Source of the DNA: a virus
Length of the DNA stretch: 26,441 bases
Strand: one strand, 5' to 3'
Virus record (IMG/VR): IMGVR_UViG_3300045933_000064
Span: 1-26,441 of that record
Made by a program: the position numbers and the translations under genes
The notes under the pieces: generated by a model
The model's database searches: none
The model's input: the letters and a program-made list of their open reading frames with translations, nothing else
Told to the model about the DNA's origin: nothing
In this document: piece after piece, positions 18,786 to 25,341 of the stretch
How the letters are laid out: every line of letters starts with the position of its first letter
How positions within the stretch are numbered: the first letter of the stretch is position 1

Positions 18786-19107
18786 CTTGTTTGTAATTGG
18801 GCGACCGCGCCTATCGGGCGGCGCGGCGGATCCCCGGTTTTGCTTTCGCCCGATCCCGCTTGCGGGCCGGATGTGTATGGAGTTCCGGCCAGCGGCGGCG
18901 ATGATGGGAGTCGGCTGTCCGGCCGGCAGTCGGCTCTCGCATCTTTCCATGCACCAAAATCTCCATACGCGACTTTCCGTCTGCGGATCAGCGAACGCCC
19001 GAACAGCATCGTTGAACCGGCTTCAGGCGGTAAGGGAAGCCGCCGGCGCCAGTCGGCAACGCAGCTGGCGCCGCGCGGTGACCCTTTCGGAAGGGGATGC
19101 CGGCGCG
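18786..19107 (+). other. 322-base stretch without a convincing gene
   Basis: Frames across this gap are open only because of GC-rich codons and contain no recognisable domain. Two inverted repeats are present: CCGCGCC...GGCGCGG around 18806-18827, and CCCG-CTTG-CGGG at 18855-18866, each followed only by short T-rich stretches. The region could hold an early transcription terminator or antitermination site between the Cro-like gene and the GcrA-like gene, or an unlisted small RNA. None of these can be shown from the sequence alone. Confidence 0.35.
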
Positions 19108-19533
19108 ATGACGTTCTGGACGGTGGAGAGACAAACCCAGGTCGCCGAGATGCTCGGCGCGGGATCTACCTTCCAGGACATCGCAAACCACTTCCACACC
19201 ACCCGCAACGCGATCGCCGGCATCATCTTCCGCAACCAGATCCTGCAGCTGGTCGCCAGGCCGCCAGCCAACAAGCCGGCAGCCAGGCCGCCGAGAAAGT
19301 ATGCCGTGAAGAAAGCGCCGCCGCCGCCTGTCGTGACCAGCAAGCCGGCGCCGCAGCCGCCGGTCATGCGCCGCGTCGGGCTGCTTGAACTCAACCGCAC
19401 CGACTGCCGCTTTCCGGTCGAGGAAGCGCCTGAAGTGATCGGCGGGCAGCGGTTCTGCGGTGCGCCGACCATCGACACTTACTGCGCCTTCCATGCAGCG
19501 GTGGCTTTTGCAGGAAAAGGAAAGGGATGGTGA
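19108..19533 (+). CDS. GcrA-family cell-cycle regulator homologue
   Basis: The 141-residue protein has the two ends of GcrA. The N-terminal helix-turn-helix is MTFWTVERQTQVAEMLGAGS with FQDIANHFHTTRNAIAGIIF. The C-terminal Cys motif is LLELNRTDCRFPV followed by RFCGAPTIDTYCAFHAAVAF. A Lys/Ala/Pro-rich linker lies between them. Host GcrA binds sigma-70 RNA polymerase and activates promoters carrying methylated GANTC in alphaproteobacteria, so a phage copy could redirect host or phage transcription. ATG 19108 starts exactly at the GcrA N-terminus; the frame is open further upstream but that part has no family character. AAGGGG lies 11 bases before it. The stop overlaps the next gene. Confidence 0.82.
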   Translation: MTFWTVERQTQVAEMLGAGSTFQDIANHFHTTRNAIAGIIFRNQILQLVARPPANKPAARPPRKYAVKKAPPPPVVTSKPAPQPPVMRRVGLLELNRTDCRFPVEEAPEVIGGQRFCGAPTIDTYCAFHAAVAFAGKGKGW

Positions 19534-19886: not shown

Positions 19887-20966
19887 ATGGATGAGGCCTT
19901 TGCACTTGTTCGCTATGATGCCGCCCGCCGCGCCATCGCCGAGGCGAAGACGGTTGATGAGGCCAAGAGCTTCCGCAATGAGTTCAAGGCGCGCCAGGCA
20001 TATGCGCGGCAGGCCAAGGATCGGCAGCTTGAAGCCGACTGCATGAAGTTGCGGTTCCGAGCAGCGCGGCGGCTCGGCCAGATTATGGAATCGCAAAAGG
20101 AGAGTTTCGGGACGGCGCAGGGACGCAGAAGCGACTTAGGTTTTTCTGCAACCCAAGTGCCGAAACCTACGCTCGATGAGGCAGGCATAGATAAGACGCT
20201 GGCCAATGAAGCCAGGACACTTGCGCGGCCTGACGAAGATGCATTCCTAACCATTCTGGAAGACCGCGAGCAACACATCCTGCGGTCAGACAGAACTGTC
20301 ATTCGCGGCATAACGATTGGCGACGAACGCCAGCCCTATGAGGGCGAAATCACTGAGGGCTGCACCGTCGAGGATCTCGATGCGCTCGCCGCCACCGGCT
20401 ACCGGACTCCTGTCATCTATGCTGACCCGCCGTGGTCGTTCGAAGCCTATTCCGGCAAGGGCAAGCAGCGTGCCGCCGACCGCTACTATGACACGCAGCG
20501 GCTCGATGACATTGCCGCAATGGCGCCGCACGTCATGGCGCTTGCCGCTGATGACTGCGCGCTGTTCCTTTGGGCAGTGATGCCGGAATTGTCCGGCGCA
20601 CTCGATGTCATCCGCAGTTGGGGATTCGAATATAAAACTGCGGCGTTCGTCTGGATAAAGACCAACGCCGACGGGTCGCCGGCGACCGGAATGGGTTACT
20701 GGACCCGCGCCAATGCGGAAGTCTGCCTGCTGGCCACGCGCGGTTCGCCGCACCGCATTGCGAAGAACGTTCACCAGGTCGTCATGGCGCCGCGCGGCGA
20801 GCATAGCGCCAAACCGGAGGAAGTGCGCCACCGCATCCACCGGCTACTGGGCCGCCCGCAACCGCCGCAACTCTATCTTGAACTCTACGGCCGAGGGCCG
20901 GTGCCTGGCTGGTATGTCTGGGGCAATCAGATTCGCCGCACCGATTTCGTGAGGGCTGCGGAATGA
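19887..20966 (+). CDS. MT-A70 family DNA adenine methyltransferase
   Basis: The 359-residue protein has two parts. Residues 1-150 are helical and basic (ARRAIAEAKTVDEAKSFRNE, RLGQIMESQKE) and resemble the N-terminal segment often joined to phage MT-A70 enzymes. Residues 165-350 hold the catalytic domain: VIYADPPWSFEAYSGKG (D180-PPW183), DDCALFLWAVMPELSGALDV, GFEYKTAAFVWIKTN, and the LYLELYGRGPVPGWYVWGNQ end. MT-A70 enzymes transfer a methyl group to N6 of adenine. In a phage this likely protects DNA from restriction or marks its own promoters. The target site cannot be read from the sequence. The end overlaps the next gene in ATGA. Confidence 0.9.
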   Translation: MDEAFALVRYDAARRAIAEAKTVDEAKSFRNEFKARQAYARQAKDRQLEADCMKLRFRAARRLGQIMESQKESFGTAQGRRSDLGFSATQVPKPTLDEAGIDKTLANEARTLARPDEDAFLTILEDREQHILRSDRTVIRGITIGDERQPYEGEITEGCTVEDLDALAATGYRTPVIYADPPWSFEAYSGKGKQRAADRYYDTQRLDDIAAMAPHVMALAADDCALFLWAVMPELSGALDVIRSWGFEYKTAAFVWIKTNADGSPATGMGYWTRANAEVCLLATRGSPHRIAKNVHQVVMAPRGEHSAKPEEVRHRIHRLLGRPQPPQLYLELYGRGPVPGWYVWGNQIRRTDFVRAAE

Positions 20967-22575: not shown

Positions 22576-22916
22576 TCCCGCAGCCGGATCCGCGCGACCT
22601 CGCCCGCCATGTCTGGGAACTCGACGGCATGCTCACGGAAACTGCAGCCATACGCTGCACTTTGCCGGATGGCGAGCCGCTGGTCGTGCGGTTCCTGGAT
22701 AAGGGCCGCTTCGTCATCTCCGTCGATCCCGGCCGCTATGACGAGGCGCGCGCATGGGTGCATGCCGCCTGCCGGCTCGATGACGTCACGCTGACCGCCA
22801 TGTTCCAGGATGCTGCTGCCGAAGCGCGCCAGGCGTCCAGGCGATTCCTGGCACATCTGCCGGAATACGAACTGCCGGAAAACCAGCCGCGCACCAGGAG
22901 GGGAATGCCTGAATGA
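22572..22916 (+). CDS. Small protein of unknown function before the helicase
   Basis: The 114-residue protein starts at ATG 22572, overlapping the previous stop as ATGA. It begins with a helix (PRDLARHVWELDGMLTETAA), has beta strands (PLVVRFLDKGRFVISVDPGR) and a long C-terminal helix (MFQDAAAEARQASRRFLAHL). No domain is recognised. It also overlaps the helicase gene by 4 bases, so it is tightly coupled to replication; a helicase loader or regulator is possible but unproven. Confidence 0.7.
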   Translation: MIPQPDPRDLARHVWELDGMLTETAAIRCTLPDGEPLVVRFLDKGRFVISVDPGRYDEARAWVHAACRLDDVTLTAMFQDAAAEARQASRRFLAHLPEYELPENQPRTRRGMPE

Positions 22917-24088
22917 ACGTCGAGGATTTCGAAAGCCATCGCCAGCAGCGGCAGCACAAGCAGCCGCCATCCGGGCCGCCGCTGATCGAGATCGGCGAGT
23001 TCATCGGCGTGTCGGCGCGCGACCGGCTGTTCCTCGACGATGCCAAGCTTCTGCCGATGCGCAACGTGGTGCTCTTGTCGGGCGACGGCGGCACCGGCAA
23101 GTCGCTACTGGCGCTGCAGCTGGCGCTGGCGACCGCCACCGCGCTGCCTTATTGGATCGGCATGACTGTGGCTAATGGGCCGGTGATCTACGTATCGGCC
23201 GAAGATGACCGCGACGAGATCCACAAGCGGGTCGAGGAGATCGTCGCCGTCGAGGAATGCGCTGACCTGGAGGCCTCGCGCGGCCTGCTGTACTTTCTCG
23301 CCCTGGCCGGCCAGGACGCCACATTGGCGATCGAGCAGCGCGCATCCTGCGCCATCAAGCCGACCGACCTGATGGGACATCTCGACCGCATGCTGGCCGA
23401 TGTCAGCCCGGTCTTGCTCATCCTGGATAACCTGGCCGACATCTATGCCGGCAACGAGAACAACCGCTCGACCGTCAAGCATTTCGTCGGCCTGTTGCGC
23501 CGGCTGGCCATCCGGCACGACTGCGTCGTGCTGCTGCTTGCCCATCCGAGCCTGTCCGGGCGATCGAACGGCACCGGCGAATCCGGCTCGACCGCCTGGA
23601 ACAACTCGGTCCGATCGAGGATGTATCTGCACCGCGTCTTTGACGGCGAAAGCCGCCACGAAGCCGACGAGCAGGCGCGCGTGCTTGAAATGATGAAGTC
23701 CAACTATGGGCCGGTCGGGCGCGAGATCGAGCTGCGCTGGCAGGATGGCCGCTTTATCCGCCGCGAGCAGACCGGCATGTTCGACGGCTGGCATCACCTT
23801 GACGAGCTGCAGGCCCGCTTCCGGGTCGAGACATGGCGATGCGACCCGCGATCCGAGATCTGGGGCGGCTGGGTGATCGCCCAGCTGATGGAACTCGACG
23901 GCGGCCGCGGTTTGTCGAAGACCGACTGCTCGGCAGCACAGAAGGCAGTGCGCAACAGGATCCAGAACATGCTGGTCATCCTGGAGAAGAACGGCGCCGT
24001 GCTGAGGGTGCGCAAGTTCGACGAGCACCGGCATGAAAAGGAGTTCTATGGAGCGCCCGGCAATGGCCAGGAAGAACTGCCGATATGA
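22913..24088 (+). CDS. RepA-like AAA/RecA-fold replicative helicase
   Basis: The 391-residue protein has a RecA-type ATPase core: Walker A GDGGTGKS at 57-64, VIYVSAEDDRDEIHKRVEEI, Walker B PVLLILDN with D172, LLLAHPS (H211) and the GSTAWNNSVRSR arginine-finger segment. This order is that of the AAA_25/RSF1010 RepA hexameric helicase family. A C-terminal winged-helix-like part (NRIQNMLVILEKNGAVLRVR) follows. It would unwind the phage origin. The start overlaps the previous gene in ATGA. The iteron cluster begins at its very 3' end, which is how plasmid and phage Rep genes sit next to their origins. Confidence 0.9.
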   Translation: MNVEDFESHRQQRQHKQPPSGPPLIEIGEFIGVSARDRLFLDDAKLLPMRNVVLLSGDGGTGKSLLALQLALATATALPYWIGMTVANGPVIYVSAEDDRDEIHKRVEEIVAVEECADLEASRGLLYFLALAGQDATLAIEQRASCAIKPTDLMGHLDRMLADVSPVLLILDNLADIYAGNENNRSTVKHFVGLLRRLAIRHDCVVLLLAHPSLSGRSNGTGESGSTAWNNSVRSRMYLHRVFDGESRHEADEQARVLEMMKSNYGPVGREIELRWQDGRFIRREQTGMFDGWHHLDELQARFRVETWRCDPRSEIWGGWVIAQLMELDGGRGLSKTDCSAAQKAVRNRIQNMLVILEKNGAVLRVRKFDEHRHEKEFYGAPGNGQEELPI

Positions 24089-24303
24089 GTGCGGCAGTCA
24101 TCATTTTACGACTGCCGCAGACTGCCGCAAACGGTGCGGCACCCGGAACGCGGTAGTGGTTGCGGCAGTCGTGCAGGCATTAGGGCACACATTACGTAGT
24201 AATGTGCCCTAACTGCCGCACTGCCGCACTAACGCATTCCGTCGCAATTTTCGAAGCGCGGCACTCGATGAAAAGGATGACTGCCGCAGAAGGAGGAACG
24301 GAC
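24089..24303. other. Candidate replication origin with iterons
   Basis: This 215-base gap has no gene but is full of short repeats. The 9-mer ACTGCCGCA occurs exactly at 24111-24119, 24121-24129, 24212-24220, 24220-24228 and 24280-24288 on the plus strand, and at 24090-24098 and 24161-24169 on the minus strand. Partial copies lie at 24076-24082 and 24135-24141. A large palindrome sits in the middle. Direct and inverted iterons beside a RepA-like helicase gene are the layout of iteron-controlled origins. Confidence 0.65.
24181..24211. repeat. Long palindrome inside the iteron region
   Basis: ACATTAC-GTA-GTAATGT (24189-24205) is a perfect inner inverted repeat. Outside it TAGGGC (24181-24186) and GCCCTA (24206-24211) pair perfectly, leaving a 2-base bulge on the left, so 13 base pairs can form a cruciform or hairpin. 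It may be a primase or initiator recognition site, or a strand-switch terminator. Confidence 0.7.
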
Positions 24304-24577: not shown

Positions 24578-24799
24578 ATGGGCGCGCTCACCGCCATCCT
24601 GCACAGATCCGCCGGCCAGCTGGTCGACCGGATGCGCGGCGAAGTGGTGGAAGCGCGTGCCACCGAGGCCAGGATGGTCGGTGAGGCATGGCGCGACCAT
24701 GTCGCGCTGCCGGCCAACTACTGGCACGACCGCTGGCGGGCCGAGCAGAAGCTGCGATCGGCCGAGCGGTTCCTCGAAGCGTTGGAGGAAAGGCCATGA
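24578..24799 (+). CDS. Small helical protein of unknown function
   Basis: The 73-residue protein starts at ATG 24578, one base after the previous stop. It is helical and charged throughout ([40 protein letters not shown]). No family is recognised. The stop overlaps the start of the collagen-like gene in ATGA, so it is part of the same transcription unit. Confidence 0.68.
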
Positions 24800-25341
24800 A
24801 CGAGATCCTTCGAGATGTCGAGCTGGACGAGCGCGGCCGCTTGCGGGTGCAAGGCAAGGCGGTGGTCACCGAGGCGCCCAGGGACGGCAAATATTACGCG
24901 CGCCGCAATGCCGCCTGGGCCGACATCGCCAAGCTGCTCGAGGAGGTCGGTGGCGGCGGTGGCGGATCCTCATCAGGCGAAGGCGGCAACGGCGAGCAAG
25001 GGCCGCCTGGACCACAGGGACCGGCAGGGCCAGCCGGGCCACAAGGTGAACCCGGTGAGCCGGGACCGGAAGGGCCAGCTGGTGCCGATGGTGCGCCTGG
25101 CACCCCAGGCGCCAAAGGTGATCCTGGCGCTCAAGGGCCAAAAGGCGATACCGGCCCGCCTGGTGCAGAAGGGCCAGCCGGTCCGCAGGGTGCGACCGGC
25201 AGCACCGGTGCGCCAGGATTGCCCGGCCCGCAAGGACCGCCCGGCGCCGATTTCCCGGATGCGCCTTCGGACGGCAAGATGTACTTCCGCCAGAACGGCG
25301 CCTGGGTCGCGCTGACGACAATCGACCAGATCGGGGCATGA
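24796..25341 (+). CDS. Collagen-like phage structural protein
   Basis: The 181-residue protein has an N-terminal head, a Gly/Ser linker at 52-64, and 28 uninterrupted Gly-X-Y triplets (residues 66-149) rich in GPP, GPQ and GPA, which will form a collagen triple helix. The ends carry the same motif: [12 protein letters not shown] (30-41) and [12 protein letters not shown] (159-170), a short trimerising unit seen in phage fibres. It is probably a trimeric fibre, spike or whisker. It lies far from the tail genes, next to the endolysin. GGAGGAAAGG precedes ATG 24796, which overlaps the previous stop. Prolines in bacterial collagens are not hydroxylated. Confidence 0.85.

Follow-up and report, generated by a model that had tools for sequence, protein, structure and literature searches.

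A RepA-like phage helicase is the probable initiator of a putative iteron origin located downstream of its own gene

Ring helicases of the RepA/DnaB type are normally thought to require both a separate origin-binding protein and a loader. The 26,441-nt viral sequence analyzed here (IMGVR_UViG_3300045933_000064; hereafter, the window) encodes a RepA-like helicase followed by a cluster of short exact repeats, raising the question of whether these repeats constitute a replication origin and which protein would read them. Based on comparative sequence analysis, we consider it probable that the repeat array is the replication origin of the phage and that the upstream AAA_25 helicase acts as its own initiator. 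The features involved are compiled in Table 1.

Table 1. Coordinates in the window of the helicase gene, its proposed DNA-reading elements and the putative origin.
Feature	Position	Strand	Basis
Gene of the RepA-like helicase (AAA_25, RecA fold; 391 aa), putative initiator	22913..24088	+	Pfam AAA_25 2.2e-31; RSF1010 RepA nearest solved structure
Predicted winged-helix domain at the C-terminus (residues 292-380), putative reader of the iterons	23786..24052	+	AlphaFold2 model; word tracking
R313 codon, pairs with iteron bases 1-2 (Arg: AC; Gln in relatives: GG)	23849..23851	+	Column scan, independent pairs
H372-R373-H374-E375-K376 codons, wing; R373 ~ base 8, H374 ~ base 6	24026..24040	+	Column scan, model, independent pairs
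Whole proposed origin	24090..24288	.	Inverted-repeat ends, fold
Iteron 1, ACTGCCGCA	24090..24098	-	Exact match
Iteron 2	24111..24119	+	Exact match
Iteron 3	24121..24129	+	Exact match
Iteron 4	24161..24169	-	Exact match
Hairpin, flanked by iteron 4 (inverted) and iteron 5 (direct); no T-run after it	24180..24212	.	Fold and repeat analysis
Iteron 5	24212..24220	+	Exact match
Iteron 6	24220..24228	+	Exact match
Iteron 7	24280..24288	+	Exact match

The gap after the helicase gene contains seven exact copies of ACTGCCGCA, five on one strand and two on the other, and their number, strands and tandem offsets of 10 and 8 bases agree with those described in an earlier note on this DNA. That note had also judged the repetition to lie beyond chance, and the counts bear this out: the window contains 7 copies compared to 0.40 ± 0.60 expected, with 0 of 100 shuffles reaching 7, and no further exact copy is present outside the array either in the full 26,441-base record or in the near-identical contig G757 (35,956 bases). 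The claim that the array begins at the helicase stop codon (24086-24088) is accurate to within 2 nt for the first exact copy, the sequence at 24076, where that note placed the start, being only a partial match (ACTGCCGAT, with two mismatches). At its other end, the array terminates 2 nt ahead of the next gene's ribosome-binding site (24291). Two further features are absent from the note: the outermost iterons belong to an 18-nt inverted repeat (24090-24107 / 24271-24288, 94%), and a strong hairpin stands between iterons 4 and 5. The gap as a whole folds much more strongly than shuffled sequences (z = -9.2). The GC skew across the window presents no clear switch point.

The terminal inverted repeat and the overall foldback are also compatible with a MITE that landed by chance behind the helicase gene. 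We regard this as extremely improbable and rejected it on the basis of single copy and conserved place, since neither the 26-kb nor the 36-kb record contains a second copy and arrays with different words occupy the same place across the helicase family. The spacer of the first inverted iteron pair (24099-24110) reads CATCATTTTACG in the window and, inverted, CGTAAAATGATG in sister phages (L099 1033-1044; L087), as if this segment had flipped between the two inverted iterons through recombination or template switching. Repeats of ACTGCCGCA were also observed in L098 and L103, spaced by multiples of 9 bases and unmatched to this helicase family; these are possibly a coding repeat.

The gene preceding the array had been described as encoding a RepA-like helicase, and this assignment is upheld by its match to Pfam AAA_25 and by RSF1010 RepA, its nearest solved relative, which covers residues 54-280. 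RSF1010 RepA (1g8y) spans 279 aa, and the window helicase extends for ~100 additional C-terminal residues that have no Pfam match. AlphaFold2 prediction using an alignment of 63 relatives (mean pLDDT 84.5) generates a C-terminal domain with a helix-strand-helix-helix-strand-wing-strand order, in which H372-H374 map to the wing tip and R313 to the loop preceding helix 2. Foldseek searches with the isolated C-terminal domain returned no confident PDB match, the best being a PadR winged helix (E 0.03), and the winged-helix label therefore rests on topology. P-loop ATPase families are the only Pfam matches along the 391 aa, with no fused primase, and a Pfam scan of the neighboring genes recognized no primase; certain relatives of the window helicase do carry a fused Toprim.

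We then scored arrays within 400 nt of related helicase genes against dinucleotide shuffles. Iterons next to this helicase are conserved in related phages: arrays were identified directly downstream of 33 of the 67 sampled related helicase genes, compared to 0 of 60 upstream, with about half of the sampled AAA_25 relatives showing no array. In the subfamily sharing the C-terminal motif of the window helicase, an array follows 62 of 79 helicase genes, versus 2 of 91 other long ORFs at the same loci; approximately one fifth of this subfamily lacks an array passing the test, and several of these present a weaker one. The words found at this place differ among relatives (CCATCCC, ACCCCAG, CCGGGTA, GCTTCCC, GTTGGAA and others), and the anatomy of the region is conserved, with a hairpin (stem of at least 6) in 45 of 59 subfamily loci. 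Stems of at least 8 are found in 44% of those 45 hairpins, compared to 4% of shuffled sequences, and the hairpin is flanked by one inverted and one direct word in 31 loci. The occurrence of this anatomy at the same place after divergent helicases lends good support to the earlier proposal that the RepA-like helicase gene is accompanied by an origin of the iteron type. The RSF1010-like layout with a separate initiator, proposed along with it, is not supported, on the grounds of the covariation described below.

Hairpins with C/G-rich stems behind genes are commonly transcription terminators, so the hairpin could be a terminator accompanied by incidental repeats, or the whole region a structured RNA. 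We consider either reading highly improbable: none of the 45 hairpins in related loci precedes a T-run, no Rfam match was obtained for the region, and the repeats covary with protein residues, as detailed below. Both candidates were rejected on the lack of T-runs and of an Rfam match. In the sister phages L009, L099 and L087, ~220 bp, apparently comprising a small open frame, separate the helicase stop codon from the array, which therefore need not touch the helicase gene. The helicase encoded by L145 (2765-5029) belongs to the C-terminal family; its winged helix is followed by an additional tail, no array lies immediately behind its gene, and the origin of L145 may be located elsewhere or have been lost. 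Searches with L127 as the query yielded no viral relatives and few in its own class.

The 9-mer of the window is also present at the stop codon of the helicase genes of L027, L041, L053 and L054. The ATPase domains of these four helicases are very divergent from that of the window (normalized similarity 0.03-0.11, the lowest values stemming from fragments), and their C-terminal domain aligns with that of the window helicase (W-R-x-D-x-R-S...W-x-G ... R-H-x-K). L126 and L010, which are 49% and 46% identical to the window helicase in the ATPase part, differ from it in carrying an unrelated C-terminus and do not harbor its word; the word of L126, with an ATPase normalized similarity of 0.40, is unrelated. 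Partial Mantel tests on 35 loci yielded a value of 0.42 for word and C-terminus given the ATPase (0 of 2000 permutations), versus -0.05 for word and ATPase given the C-terminus; after thinning to 24 loci, these values were 0.37 (4 of 2000 permutations) and -0.03. The word thus follows the C-terminal domain of the helicase and not its ATPase. A second C-terminal domain family was observed in the otherwise similar helicases of L126, L170 and L010, and L126 and L170 share both this domain and a TGGAAGG word core, suggesting that a second pairing of reader and word may exist in this family.

The association between word and C-terminus could be resolved to individual positions. With the word written as N1N2TGN5N6GN8A, we scanned 60 nonredundant helicases over 369 protein columns; some of the words behind the rules for bases 1 to 6 were aligned by regular expression or by hand. 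The best-column AMI values at bases 1, 2, 6 and 8 were 0.76, 0.78, 0.49 and 0.64, compared to 0.30, 0.34, 0.28 and 0.21 for the runners-up, and a single outstanding column emerged for bases 1/2, for base 8 and for base 6, corresponding respectively to R313, R373 and H374, all of them in the C-terminal domain. With Arg at the R313 column, base 1 is A in 27/27 cases and the first two bases are AC in 23/27, versus GG in 30/33 cases with Gln. Wing Arg at the R373 column is associated with C at base 8 (49/49), and the H374 column is associated with base 6 as follows: His with C (11/11), Met with G (12/12), Glu with G (5/5), Lys with C (11/13) and Arg with A (8/13). The word of the window agrees with this code at the bases concerned.

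The rule pairing Arg with AC and Gln with GG was set down before a scan that added 40 new nonredundant proteins, in which base 1 conforms to the rule in 38/40 cases and both bases do so in 36/40 (Arg with A at base 1 in 13/13, of which 11 AC; Gln with GG in 25/27). Phylogenetically independent pairs, counted on an ATPase-only tree, are unanimous for Arg/Gln (6:0, p 0.03), for His or Lys with C (8:0, p 0.008) and for Met, Glu, Asn or Asp with G (7:0, p 0.016); at the R373 column they amount to 4-5:0, a number of pairs too small to reach significance, and no significant association was obtained in these pairs between K376 and base 5. Base 5 is poorly predicted by the code, and the rules guessed early for bases 5/6 (N with GG and K with GC) held only in part, with exceptions. 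The code implies that an R313Q substitution should move the preference from ACTGCCGCA (ACTG) toward GGTGCCGCA (GGTG), and that H374M or H374R should move base 6 to G or A, respectively.

Since the word covaries base by base with residues of its C-terminal domain, the helicase itself is the likely reader of the iterons, through its predicted winged helix. This covariation speaks against the earlier suggestion that the initiator may be one of the small unknown proteins of the phage, and a separate small initiator would not be needed. An RSF1010-like arrangement, with a small RepC-like phage protein binding the iterons and loading the helicase, would be in line with the assignment of the helicase to the RSF1010 RepA family and with hairpins that recall ssiA/ssiB. 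We nonetheless deem it very unlikely, because the variation of the word is explained by C-terminal residues of the helicase and no RepC-type family was detected in the 20 window proteins scanned, in a record that may be incomplete.

Under the preferred reading of the helicase as its own initiator, the C-terminal domain would bind each ACTGCCGCA, with R313 addressing bases 1-2 and four wing-tip residues (H372/R373/H374/K376) addressing bases 5-8. The inverted iterons flanking the hairpin could then gather two oppositely facing helicase rings, and the hairpin, opened or extruded, would provide a helicase entry or priming site, with host or phage enzymes subsequently priming and copying the DNA. 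Situating the origin behind the gene that encodes its reader would keep reader and word linked during module recombination. An extension of this reading, which we judge somewhat more likely than not, is that this RecA-fold (RepA/DnaB-like) replicative helicase both recognizes the origin and loads itself, without a distinct initiator or loader, the residues of its winged helix specifying bases in a readable code.

Covariation is evidence of recognition and not of function, and the array might be bound by the helicase C-terminal domain as an operator, a loading or re-start site, or a partition or packaging site. The proximity of iteron 7 to the next ribosome-binding site means that a bound protein could affect downstream expression. 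However, the array follows the helicase gene instead of overlapping a promoter, and sister phages and relatives differ in how far it lies from the next gene. Moreover, the reader would be a replicative-type helicase, and the functional analogues with such a layout are origins. A non-origin role for the array thus appears unlikely, and the seven repeats are very probably the replication start site of the phage.

Several known systems resemble parts of this arrangement. RSF1010 (IncQ) combines a helicase of the same family with iterons and hairpins, but it encodes a separate iteron binder, RepC, and its RepA lacks the C-terminal domain. The helicase of phage P4 alpha is of the SF3 type, which is absent from the window protein. 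In P4 alpha, a winged helix binds the origin repeats within the same protein as the helicase (PMC4234260), although the chain also includes a Toprim primase that the window helicase lacks. ORF904 of pRN1 likewise pairs a helicase with a C-terminal winged helix, and its origin, with a stem-loop, is located just 3' of its gene (PMC4234260); it differs in its SF3 helicase, its prim/pol domain and its lack of iterons. GP46 of lactococcal phage F13 is an AAA_25, RepA-like 5'-3' phage helicase, for which we found neither an origin-binding domain nor an origin reported (PMC8965321). SaPI Rep and SCCmec Cch2 provide a precedent for a self-loading, oligomeric (hexamer-type) helicase acting as initiator, and we found no residue-to-base code described for them (PMC7581432). 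Short iterons immediately follow the helicase gene in the window, as they do in SaPI Rep-type systems. In those systems a C-terminal DNA-binding domain of the helicase reads the iterons, a role for which strong covariation and the winged-helix model make the C-terminal domain of the window helicase a candidate. The core of the SaPI Rep type is DUF927 or D5/Primase_Cterm, in staphylococcal islands (PMC7581432), as opposed to AAA_25/RepA in a phage here, and so the window helicase may work like SaPI Rep without being a member of that group. With a core different from that of SaPI Rep and no RepC among the proteins scanned, the window system was assigned neither to SaPI Rep nor to RSF1010. The literature searched describes no such origin for AAA_25/RepA-type phage helicases, a weak negative given that most subscription journals fall outside it, and we found in it no case of both roles residing in one RecA-fold helicase, as proposed here.

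A single polypeptide thus appears to combine the helicase and initiator roles, as in the SaPI and phage P4 helicase types. If the C-terminal code holds, origin sequences would become predictable from protein sequence, and the pairing of reader and word would explain the change of repeat word from phage to phage. The arrangement would also allow the position of the origin to be predicted in many uncultured phages. The system offers a compact and directly testable protein-DNA recognition code. Elsewhere in the window, a GcrA-like cell-cycle regulator (18940-19530) and an MT-A70 family methyltransferase (19887-20966) suggest an interplay with the cell-cycle and methylation control of an alphaproteobacterial host, and a collagen-like Gly-X-Y protein is encoded at 24796-25341, adjoining a GH25 lysozyme gene.
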